This document shows positions 2,229 to 12,160 of a stretch of 14,203 nucleotides of DNA, piece by piece. The DNA lies in contig JABIQT010000945.1 of assembly GCA_018667995.1 (NCBI GenBank), positions 1-14,203 of the forward strand, in the 5' to 3' direction. Position 1 is the first letter of the stretch. Each line of letters begins with the position of its first letter. The notes beneath the pieces were generated by a model. The model saw only the letters and a list, made by a program, of their open reading frames with translations. It was not told the origin of the DNA and did no database searches. The position numbers and the translations under genes were made by a program. The DNA is from Candidatus Latescibacterota bacterium. Its GTDB lineage: Bacteria; JAAXHH01; JABIQT01.

Positions 2229-2266
2229 ATTTCATCACGTTCCTATTCTTAACAGGAGGTTTGCGG

Positions 2267-4273
2267 GTGATATTATTCGCGAAACGCTCATTTAGAAGTT
2301 CGGCATTCGCCGTTGTTGCGGCTCTGGCATTTATGGTTGCCTTTTCTTGTCAGCAACAGCCACAACGGCAACCGGGCAAGATCATTCCGCTGGAGCAGCC
2401 TGACGGCGAATGGCGCAGCCTCGGTCGCGATTTGTCGTTTACAAGGTACTCGCCCTTGGACCAGATCAATGCCGAAAACGTAGGGTCGCTAGAGATAGCC
2501 TGGCGATTCAAACAAGAGAACTACGGTCTATCCCCAGCCATTGGCGGCCAGAGTTCGGAGGCCACGGCAATTTATGTGGATGGTACGGCCTATGTTACGG
2601 CTGGATTGCGACGTGCTGTGGTCGCCATCGATCCCGGGACCGGCGAAGCGCTCTGGTCCTATCGTCCCCAGGAAGACCCCGAACGATTTCAGAAAGCACC
2701 ACGACCGAGCCCCGGACGTGGTGTGACATTCTGGACCGACGGTAAGGGTGACAACAGAATTTATACGGTTTCCAAGGGATTCTATCTCCATGCGATCGAT
2801 GCCGAAACCGGTGAGTTGGTAGAGTCATTCGGAACCGGGGGTGTCGTGGATCTCATGGCCGGCCTGCGAAAGCGTGACGACGTGGATATGGCGGGATCTA
2901 TCGGGTCCAGTTCCCCTCCGACCATCGTAAACGACGTTATTGTTGTGGGACCAGCACTGGCCGCAGCATCGGGATTCCGACCGGCAAACGTGGCTAACAC
3001 GCCCGGCGATGTGCAGGCATTCGATGTCAAAACGGGCGCTCCGCTCTGGACATTCCATACAATTCCCGACGAAGGGGAAACCGGAGTCGAAACATGGGAA
3101 AATGACTCGTGGAAAGTTATAGGAAATACAGGCGTCTGGACGTCTATTTCAGCCGATCCTGAGCTGGGATATGTCTATCTACCTGTAGAGTGTCCCACCA
3201 ACGATTACTATGGTGGTCAGCGCCCCGGAGACAATCTCTGGGCAAATTCGCTCGTTTGCATGGACGCCAAGACTGGTGAAATGGTCTGGCACTATCAGAT
3301 CGTTCATCATGATGTTTGGGACTATGACAATCCAGCGGCACCGATCCTGGCTGATCTTACCATCGATGGACAGAATCGCAAGATCGTGATTCAGAATACG
3401 AAGCAGGGCTATTCTTACGTATTCGATCGCGTTACCGGCGAGCCGATCTGGCCAATCGAGGAGCGTGAAGTACCACAATCAGACGTTCCTGGTGAGCGCA
3501 CATCACCCACCCAGCCGCATCCGACCAATCCCGCACCATGGGAGCAGCAAGGGATCTCGGAAGCCGACCTGGTGGATTTCACGCCCGCCGTAAAGAGAGA
3601 AGCTATCAAGGTTCTTTCGCAGTTTCGCTCCGGTCCTTTGTTCACGCCTGCCTCTTTGGGCGATGCGGAAGACGGTACGCAGGGAGTTATCCAGATTCCC
3701 GGTGCTAATGGGGGGGTCAACTGGAACATGACAAGTTTCGATCCCATACTCGGCGTTAACTATATTCCATCGAACACGAGTATTTCACGGCTGGCATTGC
3801 AGACAGGCTCGGATGAGTCTGGTGTCGATTTTCATCAGAGCTTCGGCCGTGTCAGCACCCGTGTCTTCGGCGAAATATTGTTGAGCAAGCCACCGTGGGG
3901 ACGTATTACTGCCATCGATATGACATCCGGTGATCACATGTGGATGGTTGCCAATGGTGATACCCCCCAGGCCGTAAAGGACCTGCCTCAGCTTCGCAGG
4001 GCTAATGTTCCCAAGACCGGTAAGGCGACCCGCGTAACTTCTATGGTGACGAGCACCTTGCTCTTCGCCGGCGAGGGGTACGGCGGAGATCCTTTCCTTC
4101 ATGCCTACGATAAGTCGACTGGCGACGTCGTAGCCTCCATAGAACTGCCAGCGGCAATGAGCGGTATGCCGTCAACTTTCATGCACGATGGCAAACAGTA
4201 CATTGTTTTCACCATCGGCGAACGCGGCATGCCTGCTGAATTCGTCGCTCTCACGCTACCGGATGCCGAATAA
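2267..4273 (+). CDS. PQQ-dependent dehydrogenase lipoprotein (glucose dehydrogenase-like quinoprotein)
   Basis: I start this at GTG 2267: AGGAGG (2254-2259) lies 7 nt upstream, whereas the in-frame TTG at 2261 is only 1 nt from it. The 668-residue product has a basic, hydrophobic N-terminus ending AFSC28, a plausible lipoprotein site. The remainder is a quinoprotein propeller: WRSLGRDLSFTRYSPLDQI near the start, tryptophan-docking repeats such as AIDPGTGEALWSYRP, and HHDVWDYD at 347-354 followed by NTKQGYSYVFDRVTGEPIW. In E. coli Gcd, as I recall it, catalytic Asp466 and PQQ-contacting Lys493 are 27 residues apart in the same motifs; here D352 and K379 have the same spacing. The protein should oxidise a sugar or polyol in the periplasm and pass electrons on. 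It has no CxxCH haem site, so it needs a partner such as the cytochrome encoded at 7394-7786. There is no vicinal Cys-Cys pair as in alcohol-type quinoproteins. The substrate cannot be read from the sequence. Confidence 0.93.
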   Translation: MILFAKRSFRSSAFAVVAALAFMVAFSCQQQPQRQPGKIIPLEQPDGEWRSLGRDLSFTRYSPLDQINAENVGSLEIAWRFKQENYGLSPAIGGQSSEATAIYVDGTAYVTAGLRRAVVAIDPGTGEALWSYRPQEDPERFQKAPRPSPGRGVTFWTDGKGDNRIYTVSKGFYLHAIDAETGELVESFGTGGVVDLMAGLRKRDDVDMAGSIGSSSPPTIVNDVIVVGPALAAASGFRPANVANTPGDVQAFDVKTGAPLWTFHTIPDEGETGVETWENDSWKVIGNTGVWTSISADPELGYVYLPVECPTNDYYGGQRPGDNLWANSLVCMDAKTGEMVWHYQIVHHDVWDYDNPAAPILADLTIDGQNRKIVIQNTKQGYSYVFDRVTGEPIWPIEEREVPQSDVPGERTSPTQPHPTNPAPWEQQGISEADLVDFTPAVKREAIKVLSQFRSGPLFTPASLGDAEDGTQGVIQIPGANGGVNWNMTSFDPILGVNYIPSNTSISRLALQTGSDESGVDFHQSFGRVSTRVFGEILLSKPPWGRITAIDMTSGDHMWMVANGDTPQAVKDLPQLRRANVPKTGKATRVTSMVTSTLLFAGEGYGGDPFLHAYDKSTGDVVASIELPAAMSGMPSTFMHDGKQYIVFTIGERGMPAEFVALTLPDAE

Positions 4274-4341: not shown

Positions 4342-4354
4342 AATGGAGAAACAT

Positions 4355-4984
4355 ATGAAACGATTGCTCTGTGTACTTTCTGCGGCATTGATGCTTATGT
4401 CCGCCCAGACAGACAGTTATGCTCAGATGTCAGACAACATGCTTAGCGATGCAGACAAGGAAGCAGGCTGGAAACTCCTGTTTGACGGTCGAAGTCTGCT
4501 CGGTTGGAACCCTCGTGGTGGTGGCGCGGAGTGGAGCGTCGAGGATGGAACCATAACAGCGGTTGCTGTGCGAGGGCCAAGTTACATCGGGTCCACTCAG
4601 GAATTTGCGGACTTCACACTGAAGGCAGATTTCTGGACCGACGAAGGCCACAACAGCGGCATCTTCGTTAGAGGGCCTGCGAATCCCGGGGCCAGGGTGG
4701 GTCAGTTTTCATTCTATGAGATCAATATCGCTGATACGCACCGTTCCGGATTTACGACGGGTAGTATCGTGGATAAGAAAGTCTTCGAGCCAGCGCCAAC
4801 AACGGCTGGAAAATGGAATACCATTGAGATTGTGGCCAATGGGCGTGATCTTTCCGTTACACTCAACGGAGAAAAAGGCCTCGAAATCAAAGACAGCACG
4901 CACTATAGTGGTGTTATTGCCCTACAGGTATTCGGCGAGGGCAGGGTTCGATTTAAGAACATCAAGATTATGGAGATCAAGTAG
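4355..4984 (+). CDS. Secreted DUF1080 protein (3-keto-disaccharide hydrolase-like)
   Basis: The start is ATG 4355, with GGAG at 4345-4348 6 nt upstream; the in-frame ATG at 4343 overlaps that site and is unlikely. The 209-residue protein has a signal peptide (about 1-23, cleavage after SYA). One jelly-roll DUF1080 domain fills the rest (about 36-208). Family marks are GWKLLFDGRSLLGWN, WSVEDGTITAV, a DFTLKADFW strand, NSGIFVRGP, GKWNTIEIVANGRDLSVTLNG and a closing VRFKNIKIMEI strand. This is the family that includes 3-keto-glycoside hydrolases acting on sugars oxidised at C3; many members are uncharacterised and some are only lectin-like. Its place between a quinoprotein sugar dehydrogenase and a TonB receptor supports action on an oxidised glycoside in the periplasm or outside the cell, but the substrate is inferred. 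Confidence 0.9.
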   Translation: MKRLLCVLSAALMLMSAQTDSYAQMSDNMLSDADKEAGWKLLFDGRSLLGWNPRGGGAEWSVEDGTITAVAVRGPSYIGSTQEFADFTLKADFWTDEGHNSGIFVRGPANPGARVGQFSFYEINIADTHRSGFTTGSIVDKKVFEPAPTTAGKWNTIEIVANGRDLSVTLNGEKGLEIKDSTHYSGVIALQVFGEGRVRFKNIKIMEIK

Positions 4985-5126: not shown

Positions 5127-7301
5127 ATGAAAATCGCAGCTATTGTTGGGTTAGCGAGCATTTGTCTGTTCCCAGTCAGCGGGAGAACTCAGAGCGAGCA
5201 AGACTCAACTAACACTCAGGTGCCCGAGTACCAAATCGATCCAGTAGTGATCAGCGCAACTCGCTATGCACGTCCCATCTTTCGCGTGCCCTACGCCGTT
5301 GATGTGAAGGGACTGGACGACATCCAGCTGGGTGAGGTTGGTCTCTCTCTCGAAGAAACACTTCGCTCGCTCCCAGGTGTTGTGGTCCAGAATAGATATA
5401 ACCTCTCGCAAGGTGACAGAATCACATTGCGGGGAATCGGTAGCCGAGCTCCATTTGGTGTGAGGGGAATAAAACTCATCCAGGACGGTATACCCCTAAC
5501 TATGGCGGATGGACAGTCACAGTTGAACAATGTGGATCTTTCGTCGGTAGGGCAGATAGAAGTGCTTCGAGGTCCGAGTTCGTCACTATATGGGAATGCG
5601 GCAGGTGGGGTAATAACTCTCCAGACACAGCCTTCCTCCGACCACAAGGTGCAGGTACAGCCGAGATTCCTTACCGGGTCAAACGGACTATACAGGTGGC
5701 AGGGCAAGCTCTCAGGAAAATCGGGCGACAGCCAATATCTTGTCAATCTGAATACCCTGTGGCAGGACGGGTATCGGGATCATTCAAATGCCCGTTCGAC
5801 TGATGTAAATGCGGTTGCTAAGCACAACATTAATGATCGGCTATCTTTGACTGCCGTATTGAACGTCTATGACGCGCCTTACCTGCTCAACCCAAGTTCT
5901 CTTGACAAAGCTACCGCTACGACGGCTCCAACAAGCGCACGTGGTTTTGTGAAAAATCAGGGAGCAGCGAAAAAAATACGTCAGGGCCAAGGTGGTGTCA
6001 CGCTGCAGTATAGGGATGATGCCGATACTCGGGCTGATATCACCGTTTATGGTGTCGGTAGGACCCTATTCAACCCCATCCCAGGTAGAATTATCGATCT
6101 ATCCAGACGTGCAGGAGGGATCAGGACCCTATATAGCAGGCGGTTTGTGGCTGGAGAAACTCAGATCAGGGTCACCACCGGTGCTGATTTGGAGCTCCTC
6201 AGTGATACCCGCAAAGAATGGAGCAACGGCGGAGTGTCAACGGTCACCAGCGACGCATCTATTTTCGATAACTTATCGTTTGGCGCCCAGGGGCTCGATC
6301 AGGACGAGCAGGTTTTCGGAGTCGGGCCATTTGCAGAGGTAGAACTGTCACCTTCTCCAAACTGGATTGTTACGGTAGGCGGTCGCTATGATCGATACCG
6401 ATTCAAAGTAGATGACAATCTTCTATCGGACGGCGTGGATGATTCCGGCTCACGGGTGATGGATCAGTTTAGCCCCATGGCTGGTATAACGTATCGCCCT
6501 CATGCCTTTGTGAATCTATATTCAAACTTCTCTACGGCGTTTCAGACGCCCACCACAACGGAGTTGAGCAATCAGGCGAGCAGGGAAGGTGGATTCAATC
6601 CCAATCTCGATCCGGAGAGACTTCGAGGCTTCGAAGCAGGAATGAAAGGTGGATGGCCAGATCAGCGGTTGAGTTGGGATGCCGCGATTTTCCTCTTTAA
6701 TATCGACAATATGGTTATCCCCTTCCAGATCAATGATCCTACTACCGAAGAGGTTTTCTTTCGCAACGCGGGAAAATCTAAGAATAAAGGGTTCGAAGCT
6801 AAAGTTGGCTGGTCTCCAGTTGAAGAACTTCGACTGTCCATGGCCTATACGATAATGAAGTTTGAATTTGATGATTTTACAGTGGTGCGTGACGTCAACA
6901 GTATTCCGACTTCTATTCAACTCGCCGGCAACGATATCCCTGGCGTGCCACCCCAGCATGTATTCGCAGGAATCTCTTATCGACATCGTAGCGGCGTTTT
7001 TGCCGAGACCAACCTGCAATGGATCGACGAATACTTCGGAAACGACTTCAATGGGCCGCCACCAGGCAGCACTAAGCCGCTTAGCGCGTTCGTTAACGAT
7101 AGCTATGCGCTGGTCGACAGTCGGTTTGGTATCCAGCGCGGTTTCGGAGGCGTCGGGTTTGAATTCTTCATCGGGGTCAACAACTTGTTCGACACCCAAT
7201 ACAGCGGCTCCATTGTTCCGAACGCCTTCGGTGACCGTTTCTTTGAGCCGGCGGCAGGACGAACCTGGTACTTGGGGGCGGGTGTACCCATACCCCACTG
7301 A
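5127..7301 (+). CDS. TonB-dependent outer-membrane receptor, YncD/PqqU-like
   Basis: I start at ATG 5127, which follows GAGGA (5111-5115, 11-nt spacing) and opens a signal peptide (MKIAAIVGLASICLFPVSG). The in-frame start at 5073 would lie inside a hairpin arm and hide the signal. The 724-residue mature-type receptor has a TonB box-like DPVVISATR (38-46), a plug domain to about residue 165 (LRGIGSRAPFGVRGI, DGIPLTMADGQSQLNNVDLS, IEVLRGPSSSLYGNAAGGVI) and a 22-strand-type barrel ending NNLFDTQYSGSIVPNAFGD and FFEPAAGRTWYLGAG. These landmarks, including GYRDHS after the plug and FQTPTTTELS in the barrel, match what I recall of E. coli YncD, now known as the PQQ receptor PqqU. Its neighbour is a PQQ enzyme, which fits, but receptors for other ligands share parts of this pattern. 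The C-terminus, VPIPH, lacks the usual final aromatic residue. Confidence 0.93.
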   Translation: MKIAAIVGLASICLFPVSGRTQSEQDSTNTQVPEYQIDPVVISATRYARPIFRVPYAVDVKGLDDIQLGEVGLSLEETLRSLPGVVVQNRYNLSQGDRITLRGIGSRAPFGVRGIKLIQDGIPLTMADGQSQLNNVDLSSVGQIEVLRGPSSSLYGNAAGGVITLQTQPSSDHKVQVQPRFLTGSNGLYRWQGKLSGKSGDSQYLVNLNTLWQDGYRDHSNARSTDVNAVAKHNINDRLSLTAVLNVYDAPYLLNPSSLDKATATTAPTSARGFVKNQGAAKKIRQGQGGVTLQYRDDADTRADITVYGVGRTLFNPIPGRIIDLSRRAGGIRTLYSRRFVAGETQIRVTTGADLELLSDTRKEWSNGGVSTVTSDASIFDNLSFGAQGLDQDEQVFGVGPFAEVELSPSPNWIVTVGGRYDRYRFKVDDNLLSDGVDDSGSRVMDQFSPMAGITYRPHAFVNLYSNFSTAFQTPTTTELSNQASREGGFNPNLDPERLRGFEAGMKGGWPDQRLSWDAAIFLFNIDNMVIPFQINDPTTEEVFFRNAGKSKNKGFEAKVGWSPVEELRLSMAYTIMKFEFDDFTVVRDVNSIPTSIQLAGNDIPGVPPQHVFAGISYRHRSGVFAETNLQWIDEYFGNDFNGPPPGSTKPLSAFVNDSYALVDSRFGIQRGFGGVGFEFFIGVNNLFDTQYSGSIVPNAFGDRFFEPAAGRTWYLGAGVPIPH

Positions 7302-7393: not shown

Positions 7394-7786
7394 ATGAACA
7401 AAGTTGGATCAACCATTGGATACCTTGCGGCTATAATTCTTCCGGCCATAGTCCTGGTTTACTATATCCATGTCGTCGCTGAAGCCAAAGAGCAGGCCTT
7501 GGCGATTGCTCGGGCAAAGGAGCCAGAGATCAAAACATTGACAGATCCATCAACCGGGCTACCGGTAGACCCGGTGACAAACATGATTATGGGTGACGGA
7601 TATGCCACAGTGAAGAAGGAGTGCGCGCGCTGCCACCCGACAACATTGATCACCACCTATCGAGCCGATAAAAAAGGTTGGACCGACACTATTAGGTGGA
7701 TGCAGTCAGAAAAAGGGCTTCCTATATTCAAGCCAGAGACCGAAGAGGTAATTCTTACCTATCTTACTTCTTATTACGGAAAATAG
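7394..7786 (+). CDS. Membrane-anchored mono-haem cytochrome c
   Basis: ATG 7394 follows AAAGGAG (7378-7384) at 9 nt. The 130-residue protein has an N-terminal membrane helix (about 9-25, YLAAIILPAIVLVYYI) that should hold it in the inner membrane with the rest in the periplasm. A helical, Ala- and Glu-rich stretch leads to a single haem site, CARCH at 77-81. M103 in GWTDTIRWMQSEKGL is the likely second axial ligand, and the tail EEVILTYLTSYYG is the closing helix. The arrangement (CxxCH, then W..TIRWM, then ILTYL) is that of small mono-haem cytochromes that serve periplasmic dehydrogenases. As last gene of the unit, just before a terminator, it is the natural electron acceptor for the haem-free quinoprotein, passing electrons to the respiratory chain. 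That pairing is inferred from context. Confidence 0.88.
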   Translation: MNKVGSTIGYLAAIILPAIVLVYYIHVVAEAKEQALAIARAKEPEIKTLTDPSTGLPVDPVTNMIMGDGYATVKKECARCHPTTLITTYRADKKGWTDTIRWMQSEKGLPIFKPETEEVILTYLTSYYGK

Positions 7787-10190: not shown

Positions 10191-11021
10191 ATGGTGATTT
10201 CCGCACTCTTTATTATAGGCGGCCTATTGGTTGTAATTCTGGGTCTTTCTGGTGATTTCATGAATCCAACGATGGGGATTCTGGCGGGAACGCTACTCTT
10301 CGTTTTCGGACTGATTATACTGCGAAGACAGAAGAGACAGATTCGTATAACAGAATCCCGGATTCCTCCGTTTGAGGAAGGATCGAGCATCCCCGAGCCC
10401 AGCGAAACCGCTCCCAGCAATGGTCTGGAAATCAGTCAGACGAATTCCGAGGAGACCACGGAATCTGATAAGAATCTGATCGGTGAACCAGTGTTTGATC
10501 AGGATGACAAACCGGAACCAGGAGAAATCGTGAATGAAGAAGCTGAAAGCGATGCGATAGAAGAGGACACATTGAAAGATGAAAGTGATGTCAACGATGA
10601 GGACGCATCTTCTATAGATGCCGAAGCAGCATCGCCAATTCCAACACTCCCGCCTATGCCTCCTTCGCCTCCACTCCCGCCAATAGCTGCCGTGCCTCCT
10701 GTGGATCCTGTGGAACGTGAGTTTGTAAAAGTTGCGAGTATGGATGAGGTGAAGATGAATGCGTGTCACTCCGTTGACGTAAATGGCGTACAGATTGTCC
10801 TAGTCAATCTTGATGGTGAGTTTTTTGCCATGAGGGACAACTGTTCGCATGCCCGTGCCCGCCTCTCGGCGGGGGATATAGAGGGAAACGAAATCGTCTG
10901 CCCACTTCATGGCGCCACATTCAATATCAAAACAGGTGAGGCGACTGGACCGCCTGCCTACAACGGCGTCAAGACCTATCAGGTAAGAGTCACAGGTTCA
11001 GATCTCGAATTGGAAGTATAG
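10191..11021 (+). CDS. Membrane-tethered Rieske [2Fe-2S] protein with long acidic linker
   Basis: ATG 10191 follows GAGGAG (10174-10179) at 11 nt. The 276-residue protein opens with two membrane helices (about 3-19 and 28-44). RRQKRQIR after the second predicts that the remainder faces the cytoplasm. An unstructured linker rich in Glu and Asp (about 55-145) is followed by a proline-rich stretch (149-173). The C-terminal domain (about 175-276) is a Rieske ferredoxin fold: C218-S-H220 and C237-P-L-H240 are the cluster ligands, with the family's CPLHGATFNIKTGEATGPPA context. That domain resembles the ferredoxins of ring-hydroxylating dioxygenases and the NirD type rather than the bc1 Rieske subunit. 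The role should be one-electron transfer at the membrane. The partner oxygenase or reductase is not in the window. Confidence 0.9.
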   Translation: MVISALFIIGGLLVVILGLSGDFMNPTMGILAGTLLFVFGLIILRRQKRQIRITESRIPPFEEGSSIPEPSETAPSNGLEISQTNSEETTESDKNLIGEPVFDQDDKPEPGEIVNEEAESDAIEEDTLKDESDVNDEDASSIDAEAASPIPTLPPMPPSPPLPPIAAVPPVDPVEREFVKVASMDEVKMNACHSVDVNGVQIVLVNLDGEFFAMRDNCSHARARLSAGDIEGNEIVCPLHGATFNIKTGEATGPPAYNGVKTYQVRVTGSDLELEV

Positions 11022-11134: not shown

Positions 11135-12160
11135 ATGGCATATTCCACGTTGATATGCGGTAGCGGTGGCGCTGGCAGGCTGGTAGCTGAAGTGATGTCG
11201 AAGGATGGACGGGGCCACATTGCAGGACTTTTTGATCCGGTGCCTGATCAACTTGAAAAGGCTCAGGCGGCTTTCCCTGAAGCCGAGGCGGGGAACGACT
11301 ATGAGCGATTGCTGGATAAGGTCAATCCTGACGTTGTCGTAATAGCGGGACCAGATCATTTGCATGCCGACCAGGCTATCGCGGCTATGGATCACGGCTG
11401 TAACGTGCTTATTGAGAAGCCACTTGCGACGACGTCCGCCGACGCCCAGCGTATCGTCGAGGCACACGAGCGGACGGGGCTGCATGTTATGACGGACCAC
11501 ACGGTTCGATACATATATCCATGGCGGGACATGGCCATTGCGGCACGAGCTGGCGAGGTGGGGCGCGTCTTTTTCATTCAGGGCGAGTATATTCACGATC
11601 TGTGGACCCACTATTCCCCGGACAGTCCAAGTTATACGCCCTGGCGTATCGATAGTAAGAATCCCCAGAATATCCTACTTGGAGGGGGATGCCACCCAAT
11701 TGACATTATGCTCTGGACCATGGACTCTCCGGTTAAAGAAGTATTTGCTTACAGCAGTCACCTTAGTGCACCTGAATTTCCATCAGACGACTGCTATATA
11801 GTCGTTATGCGGTTCGAGAACGACGCGCTCGGCAAGGTATTCGTAACAAGCGGATGCTCGGGCAACCAGTGGACGGATTCGGGGTGTGGATTCCTATCGG
11901 TCCATGGCACCAACGGAACCCTTTATAAAGGGGAACTTTCGCGCAGGCATGAGGAGACCATAACGCTGGAGGATTCCTCAGGTGACGCGGTAGTCGGCGG
12001 ACACGGATGGGGAAGCTCAGTCACAGACTTTCTGGACACCCTTGATGGCAAGATAGAAAACCCGATCCCTCCGAGGGTTGGAGCCCGGATCGTAGCTGTC
12101 TGCGAAGCGGCCATGAATTCTAACACTACAGGGCAGCCCCAGAAGCCGGTAGCTTTCTAG
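11135..12160 (+). CDS. Gfo/Idh/MocA-family NAD(P)-dependent oxidoreductase
   Basis: ATG 11135 follows AAAGGA (11121-11126) at 8 nt. The 341-residue protein has no signal peptide, so it is cytoplasmic. It begins with a Rossmann fold (LICGSGGAGR, with the glycines at 9, 11 and 14), then DYERLLDKVNPDVVVIAGPDHLHADQAI and the family's EKP motif at 94-96. The C-terminal alpha/beta domain carries GGGCHPIDIMLW, where H187 is the usual catalytic histidine. Such enzymes oxidise or reduce sugars and cyclitols, including the 3-keto steps of glycoside breakdown, with bound NAD(P). The sequence does not fix the substrate. It sits 113 bp after the Rieske gene and only 33 bp before the histidine kinase, so the last two are likely co-transcribed. 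A functional link to the upstream DUF1080 gene is conceivable. Confidence 0.92.
   Translation: MAYSTLICGSGGAGRLVAEVMSKDGRGHIAGLFDPVPDQLEKAQAAFPEAEAGNDYERLLDKVNPDVVVIAGPDHLHADQAIAAMDHGCNVLIEKPLATTSADAQRIVEAHERTGLHVMTDHTVRYIYPWRDMAIAARAGEVGRVFFIQGEYIHDLWTHYSPDSPSYTPWRIDSKNPQNILLGGGCHPIDIMLWTMDSPVKEVFAYSSHLSAPEFPSDDCYIVVMRFENDALGKVFVTSGCSGNQWTDSGCGFLSVHGTNGTLYKGELSRRHEETITLEDSSGDAVVGGHGWGSSVTDFLDTLDGKIENPIPPRVGARIVAVCEAAMNSNTTGQPQKPVAF

Follow-up and report, generated by a model that had tools for sequence, protein, structure and literature searches.

The presence of a TonB-dependent receptor gene close to the gene of a PQQ enzyme in a Candidatus Latescibacterota genome raises the question as to whether the receptor is a counterpart of the PQQ receptor PqqU (YncD) of E. 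coli and what the cofactor would be used for. In the window, by which we mean the whole 14,203-nucleotide stretch of DNA that was analysed, the genes concerned are the following:

2261 to 4273, plus strand: PQQ-dependent dehydrogenase, a Gcd-like eight-bladed propeller and predicted lipoprotein (PF01011, 596.5 bits)
4343 to 4984, plus strand: secreted protein of the DUF1080 / 3-keto-disaccharide hydrolase family (PF06439, 124.3 bits)
5127 to 7301, plus strand: PqqU-like TonB-dependent receptor of 724 aa, predicted PQQ importer (NF041535, match to 9c4o, signature residues)
7394 to 7786, plus strand: small membrane-anchored c-type cytochrome, candidate electron acceptor (CARCH, a CxxCH motif)

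The intergenic gaps between these genes are 69, 142 and 92 bases. An earlier note on this DNA had placed the receptor beside a PQQ enzyme, and the dehydrogenase does lie upstream on the same strand, but since the DUF1080 gene intervenes "beside" has to be read as two genes upstream and not as adjacent. The cytochrome has a weak SorB-like match (25 bits) and its syntenic orthologues are 45-49% identical to it. Further out, a DUF7790 protein is encoded at 677-1909, upstream of the quinoprotein, and the product of 10191-11021 has an unusual layout, in which two hydrophobic segments at the N-terminus are followed by a long linker rich in acidic residues and proline and then by a Rieske domain at the C-terminus. 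A GFO/IDH/MocA oxidoreductase is encoded at 11135-12160, 3.3 kb past the cytochrome, with orthologues in relatives (55-62%) located about 6 kb past theirs; this family also feeds 3-keto-sugar pathways.

The receptor frame carries a TonB-box-like sequence (IDPVVISAT) at about residues 37-45 and matches the Plug (65.9 bits) and barrel (155.3 bits) domain families. Its top NCBIfam model is that of PqqU (NF041535, 315.6 bits), with siderophore receptors next at 147. The equivalog cut-off of NF041535, 1200 bits, is not reached, however it was passed in only one of 14 control genomes and so appears to be tuned to close kin of E. coli PqqU; the missed cut-off bars the equivalog label and not membership of the wider PqqU family. 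In a phmmer search against the PDB, YncD/PqqU came first (5e-68), more than 50 orders of magnitude ahead of the runner-up (1.6e-15), and alignment with PqqU of E. coli MG1655 gives 31% identity over 675 aligned residues. The landmarks of YncD that the earlier note had listed, in the same order, all fall in register in this alignment (RGIGSR..GVRGI, DGIPLTMADGQ, GYRDHS, FQTPTTTELS, NLFDTQYSGS and FEPAAGR). An AlphaFold2 model built from 40 homologues (pLDDT 88.4) has the PqqU-PQQ structure 9c4o as its best structural match (Z 46.7, rmsd 1.6 Å, 634 residues), the second PqqU structure, 6v81, scores Z 44.0, and the next receptor families, FoxA and FecA, are near 37 (highest Z 37.3); Foldseek agrees on PqqU. 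The resemblance pointed out in the earlier note is borne out by family model, PDB search and structure, and the product of 5127-7301 belongs to the PqqU (YncD) family as a distant member.

A quick maximum-likelihood tree, of the kind proposed earlier as a check on this assignment, groups the receptor with PqqU-like sequences, apart from BtuB, FhuA, FepA, FecA and CirA. It falls in a 23-row clade (SH-aLRT 100) of Latescibacterota, KSB1, Neomarinimicrobiota and WOR-3 proteins, nested in a 36-row clade with Rhodothermota (support 99), with the Pseudomonadota PqqU, that of E. coli included, as sister group. The PqqU of the window's lineage is distinct in the tree from that of other Latescibacterota loci. 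The split between PqqU-like sequences and the non-PqqU outgroup is weak (76), so the tree by itself would not settle PqqU membership.

In order to define PqqU, Munder et al. (2025, PMC12124388), who solved the PqqU-PQQ structure and mutated its pocket, use an aromatic residue at position 99 together with R304 and R365. All three have counterparts in the aligned receptor (Y99 is F110, R304 is R312 and R365 is R362), as do the further pocket residues K274 (K282), Q84 (Q95) and Q121 (Q132), and these six, which the receptor shares with E. coli PqqU (9c4o, 6v81) along with the fold and the plug and barrel motifs, are invariant across the 14 orthologues of the lineage. All 69 PqqU-like homologues examined carry the three signature residues. 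Ten other TonB receptors served as controls, half of them from E. coli and half from the window's genome and further ones, and none carries the set. As the patterns used in the homologue scan sit elsewhere in the plug and do not contain the three signature positions, the signature was not directly selected for. A conventional receptor for siderophores, haem, vitamin B12 or carbohydrates that is PqqU-like by shared plug motifs alone would account for the matches to generic plug and barrel families, but we hold this to be very improbable given the clear gap in sequence and structure to all other families, the tree placement with PqqU-like sequences and the kept pocket residues, which lie in the barrel too and not just in the plug. 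The receptor is very probably a PQQ importer.

The pocket also shows changes. R536, which contacts a PQQ carboxylate in PqqU, is replaced by E542 in the receptor, and the published signature requires neither K274 nor R536. All 25 homologues of the FCB-side clade have Glu at this position and 43 others have Arg; the column is gap-free up to the next NAGK motif yet lies in a loop, so that a small alignment shift is possible. R272, E364, E541 and R546 are likewise fixed in the FCB-side clade, and in the receptor Q308 is changed to Leu, Q310 to Asn, N477 to Thr and Y481 to Asn. The comparison with the PQQ-contacting residues of PqqU, proposed earlier as a check, comes out in favour of the assignment, as does the tree, the essential contacts being kept and one contact, R536, replaced. 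In E. coli the PqqU single mutants Y481A, Q308A and Q310A grow normally and R536E results in a longer lag (PMC12124388). Since R536 contacts the carboxylate and R536E lengthens the lag, the FCB-side clade would either have shifted this contact to another Arg, a shift that Munder et al. suggest for other homologues, or have changed the form of the ligand, for example to metal-bound PQQ. A PqqU descendant with a new ligand (a PQQ-metal complex, for instance, or a carboxylated quinone of related structure) could explain the fixed Arg-to-Glu change in loop 8 and the gains fixed alongside it; we consider such a switch unlikely because the residues critical in E. coli (R304, R365 and the aromatic at 99) are kept together with K274, because R536 is weakly conserved and at times substituted by another Arg according to Munder et al. 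(PMC12124388), and because the receptor shares its operon with an enzyme that uses PQQ. The apparent clade-wide fixation of Glu in place of R536 in the PQQ pocket is, as aligned here, new in this work.

The reading of the receptor as a PQQ importer also draws support from the conservation of its surroundings. Our lineage sample was a phylum of 16 genomes, that of the window included, in which the window's relatives carry the NCBI labels Candidatus Latescibacterota or Gemmatimonadetes, and 15 of the 16 carry PqqU. The order quinoprotein, DUF1080, PqqU, cytochrome c is found on one contig in 12 of these 15 (the window's genome among them), and in two others (G006 and G010) the cluster is interrupted by contig ends in a manner that fits the same four-gene order; loss of the quinoprotein beside PqqU in these two was considered and rejected in favour of a contig break. 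In G013 the receptor follows DUF7790 and DUF1080 and the quinoprotein is on another contig. At this locus (L053) the DUF7790 orthologue directly precedes DUF1080 and PqqU, taking the place of the quinoprotein, and from about 11490 the receptor frame gives way to AT-rich sequence close to the end of the contig, its 3' end lost, in a join that looks chimeric. G011 (99% complete) lacks both PqqU and a full PF01011 quinoprotein, a single co-absence event. This fixed quinoprotein-DUF1080-PqqU-cytochrome gene cluster, whose genes are predicted to be co-transcribed, is new in this work. Apart from G011, most genomes of the lineage also encode a second quinoprotein away from the cluster, with no PqqU or DUF1080 gene nearby (in the three examined its identity is 41-43%), so the imported PQQ probably serves two enzymes.

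With a view to the source of the cofactor, models of PqqB and PqqC had no match in any of the 16 lineage genomes, although the PqqC model does detect its target in 3 of 5 test genomes. Searches for PqqE gave sub-cut-off radical-SAM background matches alone and carry no information, since the model also picks up other radical-SAM proteins. TonB (TonB_C) is present in all 16. The lack of PqqB and PqqC matches and the joint absence of PqqU and quinoprotein in G011 indicate that the source organism most likely scavenges PQQ, and the lineage looks PQQ-auxotrophic, in agreement with what Munder et al. describe for Latescibacterota (PMC12124388). E. coli PqqU likewise comes from a genome where no PQQ biosynthesis genes were found, however E. 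coli pqqU stands alone whereas the receptor gene of the window lies within a quinoprotein operon.

At 31.5% identity to E. coli Gcd, the quinoprotein shares with it the quinoprotein fold and residues D466, K493, W404, R266 and D730, among them the catalytic Asp and Lys, whereas H262 and N607 are not conserved. Where Gcd has an N-terminal membrane domain the window's quinoprotein has a predicted lipoprotein anchor (lipobox ..AFSC, the start codon being uncertain). A non-PQQ "acido-empty" quinoprotein is disfavoured, since the score of 227 bits falls well short of the cut-off of 650 and the active-site residues are kept. By its PF06439 domain the product of 4343-4984 is a putative DUF1080 3-keto-glycoside hydrolase. 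Among the DUF1080 proteins are a 3-ketotrehalose hydrolase and an enzyme proposed to hydrolyse 3'-ketolactose in partnership with a periplasmic sugar dehydrogenase (PMC9007349). As in the Caulobacter LacABC/DUF1080 system, a periplasmic sugar dehydrogenase gene lies near that of a putative 3-keto-glycoside hydrolase, but the dehydrogenase is LacABC in Caulobacter (PMC9007349) and a PF01011-family quinoprotein in the window. In the literature collection that was searched, no paper connecting DUF1080 with PQQ was found. By this analogy the DUF1080 gene in the cluster suggests a PQQ-driven 3-keto-glycoside pathway.

Taken together we regard it as highly probable that the receptor is an orthologue of PqqU. 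It would bind extracellular PQQ and release it, in a TonB-driven step, into the periplasm, where the PQQ would load the co-encoded quinoprotein and the second one encoded elsewhere. The quinoprotein would oxidise a sugar or glycoside and pass electrons to the co-encoded cytochrome c, with the DUF1080 protein probably acting on the oxidised product. A more specific proposal, which we put forward tentatively and think rather doubtful, is that the operon might form a self-contained PQQ-dependent 3-keto-glycoside pathway in which the quinoprotein lipoprotein, using scavenged PQQ, would oxidise periplasmic glycosides, the DUF1080 protein would cleave the keto product, electrons would go to cytochrome c and the PQQ would be supplied by a dedicated PqqU whose pocket is remodelled (R536 to Glu).

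In order to look at the wider distribution of this linkage we scanned genome contigs; a single-sequence scan returned nothing and an alignment-based scan returned 80 PqqU loci from named genomes. Within 2.2 kb of PqqU there is a dehydrogenase of the PF01011 or GSDH type in the window's lineage, in KSB1 (L061), in WOR-3 (L067, where it is of the GSDH type, Pfam-confirmed) and in proteobacterial loci (L093, L107, L124, L126 and L128-L131). No such dehydrogenase was found in the PqqU flanks retrieved from Rhodothermota, Pseudomonadaceae and other Latescibacterota loci, so the linkage is recurrent and not general. The KSB1 quinoprotein, which faces PqqU (L061, 11448-13769), carries a cytochrome c domain inside its propeller domain and is an all-in-one version of enzyme and acceptor.

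PqqU outside Enterobacteria is already known from Munder et al. (2025, PMC12124388), who report it in 22 phyla, Latescibacterota without PQQ biosynthesis among them; the receptor is a new member of this family and has the same signature and the same absence of PQQ biosynthesis as their Latescibacterota homologues. The synteny described in the available text of that study is of PqqU with PQQ biosynthesis genes in four Burkholderiales genomes (PMC12124388), whereas that of the window joins it to quinoprotein, DUF1080 and cytochrome. The receptor-dehydrogenase linkage outside Enterobacteria that the earlier note had envisaged thus stands as a gene order, and the occurrence of PqqU there is the part that had been reported before. 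The cluster offers evidence at the genome level, which does not depend on the binding-site signature, that PQQ enzymes are served by PqqU homologues outside the Proteobacteria. It points to PQQ scavenging as a habit at the level of the lineage and suggests the use to which the cofactor may be put, and the receptor, as aligned a natural R536-to-Glu PqqU, could serve for testing the pocket model.
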